64,000 nt of DNA, from assembly GCF_003149515.1 (NCBI RefSeq), contig NZ_CP029145.1, positions 3,720,001 through 3,784,000 of the forward strand, written 5' to 3'. Positions 7,110 through 46,741 of the stretch are shown here, piece after piece. A program made the position numbers and the translations under genes. The notes beneath the pieces were generated by a model. That model made no database searches. It saw only the letters and a program-made list of their open reading frames with translations, and had not been told where the DNA came from. The first letter of the stretch is position 1; each line of letters begins with the position of its first letter. The DNA comes from Hymenobacter nivis. GTDB lineage: Bacteria; Bacteroidota; Bacteroidia; Cytophagales; Hymenobacteraceae.

Positions 7110-7178
7110 GGCACGTGAAACCCGTGCCTTAACGGCAACAATGCCGGCTCTGGACCAGCGCCGGTGGGCCCCTTGAAT

Positions 7179-7982
7179 ATGAATGCTTTACAACGCAACA
7201 ACGTCAAAGTTTCGGGGCAGGGCACGCAAGCCATCGTGTTTGTGCACGGCTTCGGCTGCGACCAGCACATGTGGCGGCTGATTGCCCCGGTCTTTGAGGT
7301 CCACTACCGGGTGGTGCTGCTCGACCTGGTGGGCGCTGGCCAGTCGGACCTGGCCGCTTACGACCCGGCCCACTACGCCGCGCTGGGCGCCCACGCGGCC
7401 GACGTGCTAGCGGTGCTGCGGACCCTGGGCCTGCACGGCGTTGTGCTCGTGGGCCACTCGGTGGGCGCCACCATCGGGGCGCTGGCCGCTGCGCAGGAGC
7501 CGGTGCGAGTGGCCCGGCTGGTGCTGGTGGCACCCACGCCCCGGTTCCTCAACGACGACGGCTACCTTGGGGGCTTCGAGCCGGCCGACCTGGAGGAGCT
7601 GTTTGGGGCCTTGGATGATAATTACCTGGCCTGGGCCGCGGATTTGGCCCCAGTGGTGATGGGCTACCCCGACCGGCCGGAGCTGGCCGCCGAGCTCACC
7701 CGCAGCTTTTGCCGCACCGACCCGGTGATTGCCCGGCACTTTGCCCGCGTCACGTTCTGGAGCGACCATCGGGCCGACCTGGCCCGCGTGCGTACCCCGA
7801 CGCTGATCCTGCAAAGCGCCCGCGACGCGCTGGTACCGCTGGCGGTGGGGGTCTACCTCAACCAACACCTGCGGGGCAGCCAGTTGGTGGTGCTCAACAC
7901 CCTGGGTCACTGCCCGCACCTGAGCGCCCCGCGGGCTACCACCGCGGCTATCGAACAGTTTCTACCCCCACCCGTACGCTAA
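7179..7982 (+). CDS. rsbQ: RsbQ-type alpha/beta hydrolase
   Basis: 267-residue alpha/beta hydrolase closely patterned on Bacillus subtilis RsbQ, the partner of the PAS-PP2C phosphatase RsbP in energy-stress signalling and a relative of the plant receptors KAI2 and D14. Similar stretches include FVHGFGCDQHMW, LLDLVGAGQSDL, VGHSVGA, FCRTDPVIARHFA and GHCPHLS. The triad is S94, D216 and H244, close to S96/D219/H247 of RsbQ. ATG 7179 was preferred over 7164 because homology starts at NNVKVSGQG. The stop is 4 nt before a PAS histidine kinase, so the two are almost surely translated together. Likely role: binding or hydrolysing a small ligand to control the kinase (inference). Confidence 0.9.
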   Translation: MNALQRNNVKVSGQGTQAIVFVHGFGCDQHMWRLIAPVFEVHYRVVLLDLVGAGQSDLAAYDPAHYAALGAHAADVLAVLRTLGLHGVVLVGHSVGATIGALAAAQEPVRVARLVLVAPTPRFLNDDGYLGGFEPADLEELFGALDDNYLAWAADLAPVVMGYPDRPELAAELTRSFCRTDPVIARHFARVTFWSDHRADLARVRTPTLILQSARDALVPLAVGVYLNQHLRGSQLVVLNTLGHCPHLSAPRATTAAIEQFLPPPVR

Positions 7983-7986
7983 AGGC

Positions 7987-9180
7987 ATGAGCCCCGACGC
8001 CGACGAGTGCCTGCCCAAGCTAGACCTGCGCCTGACCCAGGAAAACCCGGAGGACCTGTACGAGCACGCCCCCTGCGGCTACTGCTCGTGCCTGCCCGAT
8101 GGTACGCTGGTGAAGCTCAATGCGACCCTGCTCGGCTGGCTGGGCTACGCCCGTGAGGAGCTGGTGGCGCGCCAGGCCCTGCCGCAGCTACTCACGGTGG
8201 GCGGCCGCCTGCACTTTGAAACGCACGGCATACCCCTGCTGCTACTCTACGGCCAAGTGCACGAACTAAGCTACTCGCTGCGCCGCAAAGACGGCACCGC
8301 GATGCCCGTGCTGCTGAGCGCCGTGCTGGTGCGCGAAGTCGACGGCACGCCCCTGGTGGTACGCGCCATGCTGTTCGACATTACCGAGCGCCGCAAGTAC
8401 GAGCAGGAGATGCTGCGCGCCAAGGCGCTGGCGGAGGAACGGGGGGCGCAGCTGGCCTGCGCTAATGCCCAGCTTATAGCCCAGAACGAGCAGCTCACGC
8501 GCACTATCGCCGATCTCGATGGCTTCGTGTACACGGCTTCGCACGACCTCAAGCAGCCCATCGACAACATGATGGGCTTGTTTGAAGAGCTCAAGCGCAC
8601 CGCCACCTTCGCCGACCCCGAGGCGGCGGGCATGCTGGGCATGTTCGGCGGGGCCGTGCAGCAACTAGTGGGCACCATCGAGGGGCTGGCCGAGGTGGTG
8701 CAGGTGCAGCGGCAGCTAGAGGAAGTGGCCGTCGAAACCGTGGCGTTGCAGCACTTGGCCGAGGAGGTTGTGCGAAGCCTGCAGCCGCAGGCCAGCGAGT
8801 TGGGCGCCCGGTTTGAGTTCGACTTTGCCGCCGTGCCTACGCTGCGCATGGCCCGCCCGGGCGTGCAGAGCCTGCTCTACAACTTGCTCAGCAATGCGTT
8901 GCGCTACGCCCAGCCCGGGCGCCGGCCCCACGTGCGCGTCAGCACCGCCCGGGCCGGCATGGGCACCGTGCTGACGGTGCAGGACAACGGCCGCGGCATC
9001 GACCTGGAGCGTCACCGCCGCCACCTGTTCCAGCTCTTCCGCCGCTTCCACCCCGAAGTGGCCGGCTCGGGCGTAGGCCTGTACTTGGTGCAGCGGCTGG
9101 TGCACCAGGCCGGTGGCCGCGTGGAAGTGGACAGCACTGTGGGCCAGGGCACTGCCTTCCACCTCCACTTCCCCGGGTAG
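7987..9180 (+). CDS. PAS-domain sensor histidine kinase paired with RsbQ
   Basis: 397 residues, no membrane segment, so cytoplasmic. Order: PAS domain (about 20-135, including DLYEHAPCGYCSCLPDG and a PAC end DITERRKYEQ), a coiled coil (136-175), a HisKA-type dimerisation helix with phospho-acceptor H186 in ASHDLKQP, and an HATPase_c domain with N box LLSNALRYA, G1 DNGRGID and G2 GSGVGLYLV. No receiver domain and no response regulator gene is adjacent, so its target is elsewhere. The PAS domain may sense a small ligand delivered or made by the upstream hydrolase. Confidence 0.9.
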   Translation: MSPDADECLPKLDLRLTQENPEDLYEHAPCGYCSCLPDGTLVKLNATLLGWLGYAREELVARQALPQLLTVGGRLHFETHGIPLLLLYGQVHELSYSLRRKDGTAMPVLLSAVLVREVDGTPLVVRAMLFDITERRKYEQEMLRAKALAEERGAQLACANAQLIAQNEQLTRTIADLDGFVYTASHDLKQPIDNMMGLFEELKRTATFADPEAAGMLGMFGGAVQQLVGTIEGLAEVVQVQRQLEEVAVETVALQHLAEEVVRSLQPQASELGARFEFDFAAVPTLRMARPGVQSLLYNLLSNALRYAQPGRRPHVRVSTARAGMGTVLTVQDNGRGIDLERHRRHLFQLFRRFHPEVAGSGVGLYLVQRLVHQAGGRVEVDSTVGQGTAFHLHFPG

Positions 9181-9524: not shown

Positions 9525-10574
9525 TAGGACTTACGCAAAAAGTGTAACTTGAAAGGAAAAGCCATGAAAGTGACGGCACAACTGTACGGGCAGTTTTTGG
9601 TGAGCAGCCAGGTCAACTACACGGGGACGTATCTGGCCGAGCATCTGGAGGGCCTCTCGCACGACAACGTGCGCTATTTTCTCAAAACCCGGCGTTTCAC
9701 CCCCCGCCAGCTCTGGCAGCAAGTACGCCCACAGGTGATGCTCAGCGCGCGGGGCTACGTCCTGTTTGACGACACGGTGCTCGACAAGCACCACAGCCGG
9801 CGCATCGAACTCGTACGCCGCCAGTACAGCGGCAACGCCCACGGCGTGATTGCCGGCATCGGCCTGGTGACGTGTGTGTACGTCAACCCCGAAACCGACC
9901 AGTTCTGGCTCATTGACTACCGCCTTTTCGCCCCCGACACCGACGGCAAGACCAAGCTCGACCATGTGGCCGACATGCTCGGGCAATTGGCCCCGCGCAG
10001 TATCCCATACCGCACGGTGCTCATGGATAGCTGGTACGCCACCACGGCCCTGTTCAAGTGGCTGCTGGACGAAGGCAAAACATTTTACTGCCCGCTGAAA
10101 AGCAACCGGCTCGTCGATGATTCCGGCGGCCAGCAGCCCTACCAGCCCGTGGCCTGCCTGTGCTGGTCGGCCGCCGAAGTAGAAGCTGGCAAAATCCTGA
10201 AAGTGAAGGGCATGCCCAAAGATTGCAAACTGAAACTCTTCCGCGTACTGGTGTCCACCCACCGGACGGACTACCTCCTCACCAACGAGGTTGAGCCCTT
10301 GCACACGGCCGCTGCCGAACACGAAAGCAGCGTCCGCTGGACGATTGAGCAGTTTCACCGCGAACTCAAGCAACTCACCGGCGTGCAGGCCTGCCAGTGC
10401 CGGCTGGCCCGCAGTCAGCGCAATCATATTGCCCTGGCCGTGCGCGCTTGGACCTGCCTTAAACAAGCCGCCTACCAAACCAAACAAACCGTCTATCAGC
10501 TCAAACAAGGCTTTTTGGATGAGTATATGCGACATGAATTACGCCAGCCTTCGCTCGCGTTTGCGTAAGTCCTA
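9525..10574 (+). mobile_element. Complete IS701-like insertion sequence
   Basis: 1,050-bp element bounded by a perfect 15-bp inverted repeat, TAGGACTTACGCAAA at the left and its complement at 10560-10574. It holds one intact transposase gene whose stop codon lies inside the right repeat. The terminal TA may belong to the target duplication. It inserted about 20 bp beside palindromic repeat A. No inactivating change seen. Confidence 0.85.
9564..10568 (+). CDS. IS701-like DDE transposase
   Basis: 334-residue transposase starting at ATG 9564 (MKVTAQLYGQFLVSSQ). DDE-type landmarks are DDTVLDKHHS (first Asp), LMDSWYAT (second Asp) and WTIEQFHRELKQLTG, the E-containing motif typical of IS4/IS701 transposases. 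The upstream in-frame start at 9549 is less likely. The gene fills the element and ends in the right terminal repeat. The IS701 assignment rests on motif pattern rather than a search. Confidence 0.88.
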   Translation: MKVTAQLYGQFLVSSQVNYTGTYLAEHLEGLSHDNVRYFLKTRRFTPRQLWQQVRPQVMLSARGYVLFDDTVLDKHHSRRIELVRRQYSGNAHGVIAGIGLVTCVYVNPETDQFWLIDYRLFAPDTDGKTKLDHVADMLGQLAPRSIPYRTVLMDSWYATTALFKWLLDEGKTFYCPLKSNRLVDDSGGQQPYQPVACLCWSAAEVEAGKILKVKGMPKDCKLKLFRVLVSTHRTDYLLTNEVEPLHTAAAEHESSVRWTIEQFHRELKQLTGVQACQCRLARSQRNHIALAVRAWTCLKQAAYQTKQTVYQLKQGFLDEYMRHELRQPSLAFA

Positions 10575-29598: not shown

Positions 29599-30333
29599 TT
29601 ACAGGCTCAGCAGCTCGCGGAACAGGCCCGACTGGCTGCGCGACACCTCCACGTCGGGCCCCTCGCGGAGGCTGATTTTGAGCGTGTTGCTGAACCAGGG
29701 CGCGATGCCGGCCACCCAGTGCAGGTTGATGATTTGCTGGCGGTTGGCCCGAAAAAAAACCTTGGGGTCGAGGCGGGCCTCCAGCTGCTGCAAGCTGCGC
29801 GGAATGAGCGGCCGGTGCTGCTCGAAGTACACCCGCGTGGCGCTGCCGCTGATTTCAAATAGCCGGATATCGGCCAGGCGCACAAACCAGCACCGCTCGC
29901 CGTCTTTCACAAACACTTGGTCGTGGGCCGCGAGGGTGGGCAGCGCCGGCTCGGGCTCCGCTGCTGGGGCCCCGGCGGCGGCGGCCAGCGGCCGGATTTT
30001 GGCCAGCGCCGCCGCCAGCCGGGTTTCGCTCACCGGCTTCAGCAAGTAGTCCAGCGCGTTGACCTCGAACGCTTGCAGGGCGTACTGGTCGTAGGCGGTG
30101 GTGAAGATGACGCGCGGGGCCGGCCCCTCCAGCGAGGCCAGCAGCTCGAACCCCGTTTCGCCGGGCATGTGGATGTCGAGGAACAGCACGTCGGGCCGCA
30201 GGGCGGCAATTTGCTGGCGGGCTTCGGCGGCGTGGCGGGCCTCGCCCACCACCGTCACCTCGGAGAAGGCGCGCAGCAGGTGGCGCAGCTCGGTGCGGGC
30301 CAGGCGCGAGTCGTCAATCAGCAAAGCGTTCAT
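29599..30333 (-). CDS. LytTR-family response regulator
   Basis: 244 residues: receiver domain (1-115) with phospho-acceptor D53 in FLDIHMPGE and the acidic pair DD at 7-8, a short Ala/Pro linker, and a LytTR DNA-binding domain (about 140-240; VFFRANRQQIINL). It overlaps the 3' end of the cognate LytS-type kinase gene by 20 nt, so the two are translationally coupled. Confidence 0.93.
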   Translation of the reverse strand: MNALLIDDSRLARTELRHLLRAFSEVTVVGEARHAAEARQQIAALRPDVLFLDIHMPGETGFELLASLEGPAPRVIFTTAYDQYALQAFEVNALDYLLKPVSETRLAAALAKIRPLAAAAGAPAAEPEPALPTLAAHDQVFVKDGERCWFVRLADIRLFEISGSATRVYFEQHRPLIPRSLQQLEARLDPKVFFRANRQQIINLHWVAGIAPWFSNTLKISLREGPDVEVSRSQSGLFRELLSL

Positions 30334-31459
30334 CGGCAATGCGCTTATCAGCAAGGGGTTCGTCGGCAAAGTATTTATCGGCAGCGGGTTGGGGCGCGGA
30401 GGCGGGCAGGCGCAGCTCGGCCAGCACGGTGTCGGGCAGCAGCGGGTCGGGGCCAATGGCAAAGGCCGCGGCCGGCCCAAACAGCAGGTGTAGGCGCTCC
30501 CGCACGTTGCGCACGCCCACGCCGGCGTGGCCGGGCCGGGGCTGGTAGGTGCCGGTGTTGCGCACGGCAATGCAGAGGCTGCCGTCGGCCGGGGCCCGGC
30601 GGGCGCTGAGGCTGAGCTGGCCGCCGGCCGGCCGCGGGGCCAGCCCGTGCTTGATGGCGTTTTCGACCAGCAGTTGCAGCGTCATGGGCGGCAGCAGCAG
30701 GGGCAGTGCGTCGGGGGCCACGTCGAGGCTATAGCGCAGGCGCTCTTCAAGCTGCAAAGCTTCGAGCTGGAGGTAGTTATCCACAATTTCCAGCTCGGTG
30801 GCCAGCGGCACCTGCGCGGTGCCGTTGCGCTGCATGGCGTAGCGCAGCAGCTCGGCCAGATGCGTCATCATGGCTCGGGCGCGGGCGGGGTCCTCCATCA
30901 CCAGGGCCCGGATGTTGTTCAGCCCGTTAAACAAAAAGTGCGGGTTGAGCTGGGCTTGCAGCGTGCGTAGCTCGGCCTCGCGGGCGGCGGCGGCCAGCTT
31001 CCAGCGGTCCACCTCGGCCTGTTTGTAGCGGTCGAGGTAGTGCAGGCCGAAGTAGCAGGCCGTCCACAGCCAGAGTACGAAATAGGTTTGCAGCACGTAG
31101 CCTACAAACTGGCCGCCGCCCGCCGGGCCGCCCAGGCTGGCCGGCGGCCGGATGACGAATGCAATGAGGGCCCCCAGCACCAGCTGGCTGCCCAGGGCGG
31201 CCGCGCCGTTGGCCAGCGCCAGGCGCCACAGCAGCCCGCCCAGGCCCAGCGCCCGCCAGCCGCGCCGCCCAAACAGCGTGCGCAGCCCGTGGCTGGTGAG
31301 CACCAGCACCGCCGCCATCGTCACCTGAATGGCCACCAGGTGCCAGGTAATGGCCACCGCGAAGGCGAACAAGTGAATCATTAGCAGCCCCAGGGCCCCG
31401 TACAGGGCCCAGCCGGCCACCTGCAACACCCAATAAAGCCGGCGGCGGGGAAGAAACAT
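30314..31459 (-). CDS. LytS/YehU-type sensor histidine kinase
   Basis: 381 residues. Four to five membrane helices (about 8-30, 35-58, 75-103, 118-140) followed by a His_kinase domain with H174 in LNPHFLFNGLNNI and an HATPase_c domain (LLVENAIKHGL, VGVRNVRERL). The C-terminus ends in a short imperfect repeat (DKYFADEPLADKRIADERFAD, split over repeats of ADKxx and ADExx) encoded by 15-bp-like units that also form the overlap with the regulator gene. It lies 31 nt after a membrane-protein gene. Confidence 0.93.
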   Translation of the reverse strand: MFLPRRRLYWVLQVAGWALYGALGLLMIHLFAFAVAITWHLVAIQVTMAAVLVLTSHGLRTLFGRRGWRALGLGGLLWRLALANGAAALGSQLVLGALIAFVIRPPASLGGPAGGGQFVGYVLQTYFVLWLWTACYFGLHYLDRYKQAEVDRWKLAAAAREAELRTLQAQLNPHFLFNGLNNIRALVMEDPARARAMMTHLAELLRYAMQRNGTAQVPLATELEIVDNYLQLEALQLEERLRYSLDVAPDALPLLLPPMTLQLLVENAIKHGLAPRPAGGQLSLSARRAPADGSLCIAVRNTGTYQPRPGHAGVGVRNVRERLHLLFGPAAAFAIGPDPLLPDTVLAELRLPASAPQPAADKYFADEPLADKRIADERFAD

Positions 31460-45822: not shown

Positions 45823-46491
45823 CTAATCCAGCAGGCCCTCCGTTACGGCCCGGTGGATGAGGGCAGCGGTGTTCTTGGTTTGGGTTTTTTCCAGAATGTG
45901 CTGGCGGTGGGTTTCAACGGTGCGCTTGCTGGTGAAGAGCTTGGCGGCAATTTCGTTGGTGGTGAGGCCCGCGGCCAGCAGCTGAAGCACCTCCAGCTCG
46001 CGGGTGGTGAGGCGGCGGGCGCGCTGGCTGTTGGCCAGCGCCGCGGCCGTGGGGCCATGGGCAGCCGGAGCAGGGGCCAGTAACTGGTGCAACAAGCTCA
46101 GCCCCAGCTCCGAGCACAGGTACAGCTCGCCGGCCGCCACGGCCCGGATGGCCGCCAGCAACTCAATTTGCCCGGTGCTTTTGAGCAGGTAGCCCTGCGC
46201 GCCGGCTGCAAACAGCTCCCCAATGCGCTGGGGCTCGGCCACCATCGTGAGCACTAATACGCGCAGGGCGGGGTACTCGGCGCGCAGGCGCGCGGTGGTG
46301 GCCAGGCCGTCGAGCACGGGCATGGCAAGGTCGAGCAGTACCACGTCGGCGGGCGTGGTGGGCAGGCAATCGAGCAGCTCCTGGCCGTGGCTGGCTTCGC
46401 CCACCACTTCCAGGTCGGCCTCGGCGGCCAGCAGGGCACGCAGGCCGTTGCGCACAATGGAATGGTCGTCGACTACAAAGAGGCGGATCAT
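45823..46491 (-). CDS. NarL/LuxR-type response regulator
   Basis: 222 residues: receiver (1-120) with DD at 8-9, phospho-acceptor D54 in VVLLDLAMP, and a C-terminal LuxR helix-turn-helix (LTTRELEVLQLLAAGLTTNEIAAKLF and TVETHRQHILEK, shown split). No histidine kinase gene adjoins it, so it may answer to an orphan kinase such as the PAS kinase at 7987-9180 (speculative). A TATCTTGG box upstream is one base off the -7 consensus. Confidence 0.92.
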   Translation of the reverse strand: MIRLFVVDDHSIVRNGLRALLAAEADLEVVGEASHGQELLDCLPTTPADVVLLDLAMPVLDGLATTARLRAEYPALRVLVLTMVAEPQRIGELFAAGAQGYLLKSTGQIELLAAIRAVAAGELYLCSELGLSLLHQLLAPAPAAHGPTAAALANSQRARRLTTRELEVLQLLAAGLTTNEIAAKLFTSKRTVETHRQHILEKTQTKNTAALIHRAVTEGLLD

Positions 46492-46741
46492 GTCCGCCGG
46501 TGAAAAAAAGTGGGGCCCCGCGCCCCGCGCCGGTAATGCCGACCAGCCGGGAAGGTGAAGGGATGCATAGCGCTGGTTATTAACAGTAAACAGTGTAGCC
46601 AAGATAGAGAATTTTTTGAATATTCAATGGGTGTGCTTAGCTGAAAATTGCCGCGGGCGGCAGGGGCCGGGGCCCAACCCTATGCGGGGCCCTGCGTTAG
46701 CAAGCCCGCGCCCGTTGCGCCCCGTTTAGTCAATTCCCACC

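Follow-up and report, generated by a model that had tools for sequence, protein, structure and literature searches.

Two adjacent genes of Hymenobacter nivis, one for an RsbQ-type hydrolase (Q) and one for a PAS sensor histidine kinase (K), very probably each encode one half of a bipartite RsbQ-PAS sensor in the cytoplasm, whose output is the histidine kinase. Judged on sequence, the earlier reading of this pair as an RsbQ-RsbP-like system is largely right but not new: a preliminary description had implied that the coupling of RsbQ to a PAS kinase was novel, and Gram-negative examples of an RsbQ hydrolase with a PAS histidine kinase had already been published in 2011 (PMC3183031). What we add are sequence tests of membership, a sampling of the Bacteroidota and a set of clade-specific changes. 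Both genes lie in the stretch of 64,000 nucleotides analysed here (the window), with the following features:

7179 to 7982, plus strand: gene Q, RsbQ-type alpha/beta hydrolase of 267 aa (ATG at 7179, TAA at 7980-7982).
7458 to 7460, 7824 to 7826 and 7908 to 7910, plus strand: codons of the Q triad residues S94, D216 and H244, respectively.
7983 to 7986, plus strand: intergenic spacer of 4 nt (aggc).
7987 to 9180, plus strand: gene K, soluble PAS sensor histidine kinase of 397 aa without a receiver domain (ATG at 7987, TAG at 9178-9180; Pfam and structural model).
8050 to 8388, plus strand: RsbP-type PAS domain, residues ~22-134 (Pfam PAS_9 at 29-134, model and class alignment).
8206 to 8235, plus strand: F-alpha helix motif RLHFETHGIP, residues 74-83, equivalent to RsbP 53-62 (alignment).
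8374 to 8385, plus strand: FDIT, residues 130-133, a DIT-type exit motif closing the PAS, common to the Hymenobacter members (alignment).
8383 to 8601, plus strand: unbroken predicted helix, residues 133-205, a signalling coiled coil into DHp helix 1 (AlphaFold2).
8542 to 8544, plus strand: H186, predicted phospho-acceptor His, invariant in 23 aligned kinases (alignment).
8734 to 9177, plus strand: catalytic ATP-binding domain, residues 250-397, with N303, D333 and G360/G362/G364.

The two open reading frames announced in the preliminary description, an RsbQ-type gene followed after 4 nt by a PAS kinase gene, were recovered in place on the same strand, as were the Q triad and H186 of K. Upstream of the ATG at 7179 the open frame of Q reaches a GTG at 7164, and the start seen in relatives agrees with ATG 7179. 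By sequence, Q is a full-length member of the RsbQ family, nearer to RsbQ than to any other alpha/beta hydrolase of solved structure: its top match in the PDB is B. subtilis RsbQ (1wom, E 4.6e-79), aligned over 260 residues (Q residues 3-262) with the triad in register, followed by 3qvm and then by D14/KAI2 (best 5.5e-58). The triad residues stand in the contexts LVGHSVGAT (S94), LQSARDALVP (D216) and TLGHCPHLS (H244), and are unchanged in the 81 paired and 23 unpaired RsbQs examined. The 4-nt spacer between Q and K is consistent with a single transcript.

Pfam and the structural model agree with the earlier view of K as a soluble kinase lacking a receiver. The Pfam search returned HATPase_c (1.5e-22), PAS_9 (7e-10) and HisKA (9.7e-4, its score of 19.6 lying under the 26.9 cut-off), with no receiver and no further input domain. 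H186 lies within VYTASHDLKQP, and K has complete N, G1 and G2 boxes (N303, DNGRG at 333-337 and GSGVG at 360-364). In the AlphaFold2 model (23 sequences in the alignment, mean pLDDT 84.1, pTM 0.50), the PAS is followed by the helix 133-205, which includes H186, and then by another DHp helix and the ATP-binding domain (CA). Foldseek matches this model to PAS/LOV histidine kinases, 4gcz among them.

The class to which we compared the pair was defined by Nadezhdin, Brody and Price (2011), who described 45 RsbQ/PAS gene pairs and named them a bipartite sensing module, with the PAS fused to PPM phosphatases, histidine kinases (in Gram-negatives) or diguanylate cyclases (GGDEF), and who chose nine PAS class residues (PMC3183031). 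In RsbP, signalling was lost with Ala at L48, F55, Y59 or E72 and was weak in P86A, and Ala at L13 had a modest effect; RsbQ contacts the RsbP PAS through the region equivalent to the F-alpha motif of K, and F55A blocks both RsbQ binding and signalling (PMC3183031). The class sets are aromatic (FHWY) at position 55 and HY at position 59, the DIT motif was reported absent from every class sequence, and the paper's text names no Bacteroidetes (PMC3183031). More recently, an AlphaFold2 model of two RsbP with two RsbQ placed RsbQ between the PAS domains and linkers (PMC12143880).

We mapped RsbP positions onto K through a Paenibacillus member that matches RsbP numbering without gaps; relative to this numbering, the K PAS has one extra residue, which shifts the count by one upstream of the F-alpha helix. 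K carries C10, C13, L48, R53, H55, F56, H59, P62, E72 and P86, and thus agrees with the class at 9 of the 10 positions checked (P62 and all but one of the 9 class residues), the sole departure being L13 to Cys. The four positions essential in RsbP (L48, F55, Y59 and E72) are L, H, H and E in K, a match by residue class: F55 itself is not kept, and the His that replaces it falls within the FHWY set. At the other class positions (C10, L13, Q53, which is basic in the class, C56 and P86) and at P62, K has C, C, R, F, P and P. The absence of DIT, a descriptive remark on the 2011 set and not a class residue, does not extend to K, which has FDIT. The layout is that of the module, with the RsbQ gene immediately upstream and the PAS as the most N-terminal domain of K, and the linker is likewise helical (133-205), running into the DHp and on to a HATPase_c output.

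Pairing of Q with a PAS protein is conserved far beyond the window. A scan of named genomes with Q, which used Q peptide patterns and is biased to close relatives, gave 80 loci from several phyla. In each of the 80, an RsbP-type PAS open reading frame comes immediately after Q, the median distance between the Q stop and the PAS being 54 nt. The outputs among 81 downstream proteins were SpoIIE/PPM (34), HATPase_c (44) and Response_reg (13), a mix that matches the 2011 pattern. Two samples with less of this bias gave the same picture. Conserved adjacency, whose absence was the first refuting condition of the preliminary description, was also found across the Bacteroidota: 345 genomes yielded 19 RsbQ matches in 16 genomes, with a PAS within about 20-70 nt in 13 of the 19. 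RsbQ is present in 125 of 150 Hymenobacteraceae genomes, and there a PAS follows every one of the 30 RsbQs most like Q (at least 64% identity, that of the window among them), one of these PAS being broken by stops. Because it is conserved across so many genomes, adjacency of Q and K by chance is excluded. Distances between Qs and between their PAS partners are strongly correlated (Mantel r 0.80; the highest of 2000 permutations gave 0.16), a co-divergence expected for a unit, which common descent of neighbours alone also gives.

Two further ideas drawn from these comparisons were set aside. F25, C27, H30, M31 and N148, kept in paired and lost in unpaired RsbQs, were not taken for a pairing signature, since the patterns used to fetch the paired set contain these residues (FGCDQHMW and DDNYLAWA). 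The idea that Hymenobacter acquired the module from Actinomycetota, prompted by 62% identity to Cellulomonas, was dropped, the Q tree giving no strongly supported placement. A literature search on RsbQ together with Hymenobacter or Bacteroidetes returned nothing relevant.

Exceptions to the pairing weigh against the bipartite-sensor reading. In genome G098, a locus syntenic with the window retains an intact K (PAS 92% identical) next to a Q reduced to a pseudogene by multiple frameshifts, and elsewhere in the genome an intact Q precedes a broken PAS (these reciprocally decayed loci are L142 4086-6016 and L096). In genome G142, an RsbP-type PAS kinase (L143 5074-6351, minus strand; PAS 67% identical) is present with Asn at position 55 and no RsbQ anywhere in the genome (best hydrolase match 1.1e-12), so that K can exist without Q. 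The two cases, one of each kind, fit a pair that may act in trans or be retired. As proof of a contact role for position 55, the Asn of G142 was not accepted: it is merely suggestive, 5 of 80 paired PAS domains having Ala or Ile there. Output halves also vary elsewhere. In two Paenibacillus loci (L060 5761-6297 and L077 5776-6411), RsbQ is followed by a PAS-plus-coil open reading frame of ~180-210 aa without an output domain, and in a Rhodospirillales MAG (L073 5743-6228) an in-frame TAG in the linker splits the PAS kinase, which resumes in frame.

Many Hymenobacteraceae RsbQs have no PAS partner, indicating that RsbQ is not always in need of one. Several PAS-less Hymenobacter RsbQs lie next to or near NDH-2 genes (Pyr_redox_2/NDH2_C; L122, L123, L124, L127, L128, L130, L132 and L133), often with a DUF2721 or TonB receptor gene beside them, and this group is possibly an RsbQ branch tied to respiration. 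The window's own genome holds a second RsbQ homologue of this NDH-2-linked group (L089 6544-7230, minus strand, that is G000:C1:4060576-4061280; 56% identity), which has no adjoining PAS and is frameshifted at its N- and C-terminus; it is flanked by an NDH-2 gene, a ModE-like HTH gene (by eye) and a TonB receptor gene. An NDH-2-like gene also lies near a paired RsbQ, in Fibrisoma (L048, 2301-3614). A third, long-branched group of PAS-less Hymenobacter RsbQs stands beside a molybdopterin-binding dehydrogenase gene (L139, L140 and L141). In other Hymenobacteraceae genera, PAS-less RsbQs from four genomes are directly followed by a small conserved protein of ~140 aa (KELKKANGDVFFEA..R; L135 4872-5294, L136 4872-5300, L137 4818-5270 and L138 4853-5263), which has no Pfam match and resembles small STAS/SpoIIAA-like proteins by eye only.

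No response regulator gene adjoins the Q-K pair, leaving K an orphan at the window locus; directly downstream is a DDE transposase gene (window 9549-10568). The receivers found in the window, one LuxR-type (45826-46623) and one LytTR-type (29602-30681), are too distant to be assigned to K. In related loci, a single-domain receiver directly follows the kinase (Chitinophagaceae L040 and L057), the pair has a PAS kinase and a receiver gene as neighbours (Hymenobacter L006 and L008), or the kinase is a hybrid (Pontibacter-type members). Judging by these loci, the usual partner of the kinase is probably a CheY-like receiver.

By analogy with B. subtilis RsbQ-RsbP, from which we infer physical contact between Q and K, the need for the triad and the signal route, the pair could operate as follows. 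A small hydrophobic ligand, plausibly butenolide-like, would enter the Q pocket, and Q, with its intact Ser-His-Asp triad, would dock on the F-alpha helix of the K PAS dimer. Ligand-dependent contact, or a hydrolysis product handed to the PAS, would shift the continuous PAS-DHp helix and alter autophosphorylation at H186, and the phosphoryl group would pass to a response regulator encoded elsewhere. A lead for the ligand step is the reported perception of butenolides by B. subtilis through RsbQ (Melville et al. 2024, Curr. Biol. 34:623; reference given in PMC13192556), and the AlphaFold2 model of PMC12143880 is a lead for the geometry of contact.

The 2011 paper offers two versions of such a sensor, and the weights that we attach to them are shares within this best explanation. 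In its sub-model 2, on which we are evenly divided, Q itself acts as the receptor, with hydrolysis either incidental or serving as a timer, and the PAS reads Q occupancy by contact, as happens with D14/KAI2 and their partners: D14 and KAI2 are close in sequence to Q, and the conserved part of the PAS is the F-alpha contact region (PMC3183031), but the invariant triad fits either version and sequence cannot separate them. In its sub-model 1, plausible yet on balance somewhat doubtful, sensing is done by the PAS, whose pocket receives the product of Q; this agrees with the invariance of the triad and with the null phenotype of RsbQ triad mutations in B. subtilis (PMC3183031), whereas no PAS ligand was found for RsbP (PMC3183031) and the FixL/Dos heme-ligand position is Phe in K. 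A reading of the two as neighbours without a functional link, with Q serving metabolism as an esterase and K working as a kinase on its own, is very improbable, for although the family has orphan RsbQs and one K without Q, order and spacing are kept across several phyla while output domains change, and the class-specific F-alpha motif goes with Q (PMC3183031).

Within the bipartite-sensor reading, the Hymenobacter members stand out by their PAS residues. His at position 55, Cys at position 13 and FDIT at the PAS end are found in the window and in all 8 Hymenobacter loci; position 55 is Phe or Tyr in 67 of 72 non-Hymenobacter loci, and at the PAS end 2 Actinomycetota have FDVT, while FDAT is seen in 17 of 81 members. 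The 2011 paper names position 56 as the one that supplies the heme ligand in FixL/Dos (PMC3183031); it is His in 40 of 72 non-Hymenobacter members and Phe or Tyr in Hymenobacter, which makes heme binding through this position unlikely in the Hymenobacter PAS. A bolder proposal, which we put forward as a long shot, is that the Hymenobacter clade remodelled the RsbQ-PAS interface (His for F55, Cys for L13 and the DIT exit) into a soluble two-component receptor for butenolide-like molecules, a bacterial counterpart of D14/KAI2 signalling with a phosphotransfer readout; the PAS-less RsbQs near NDH-2 would then be a second RsbQ branch with another partner.

These data document the RsbQ-PAS-kinase arrangement in Bacteroidota with sequence tests, and Hymenobacter offers natural experiments in the form of intact pairs, half-broken pairs, a kinase without RsbQ and RsbQs without a PAS. 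The signal controlling RsbP was still unknown as of the 2011 paper (PMC3183031). Reconstitution in vitro should be easy for a soluble two-gene kinase version, and with it ligand sensing by Q could be told from delivery of a product to the PAS.

Among the closest known systems is the B. subtilis RsbQ-RsbP pair of the sigma-B energy stress response, which shares with Q-K the triad and a hydrolase gene immediately upstream. Like RsbP, K has an N-terminal RsbP-type PAS, a helical linker and most class residues; unlike RsbP, a PPM phosphatase, it has a HisKA/HATPase output, His in place of F55, Cys in place of L13 and a DIT motif, and no sigma-B context is known for it. The preliminary description had called the pair an RsbQ-RsbP analogue in a two-component setting, of which the RsbQ-type hydrolase, the RsbP-type PAS and the pairing hold, the pair being better termed a member of the RsbQ-PAS class. 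Plant D14/KAI2 are homologous alpha/beta hydrolases with the same triad, but Q is more similar to RsbQ and its partner is a PAS kinase, whereas D14/KAI2 receptors signal via F-box proteins and not PAS kinases. With PAS/LOV histidine kinases such as 4gcz, K has in common the PAS-helix-DHp-CA layout, and differs from 4gcz in that its input is a separate hydrolase and its PAS is of the RsbP class. The Gram-negative RsbQ-PAS-histidine kinase modules are like Q-K in both their two-gene architecture and their class of output; unlike that set, reported without the motif, the Hymenobacter members carry DIT (PMC3183031).
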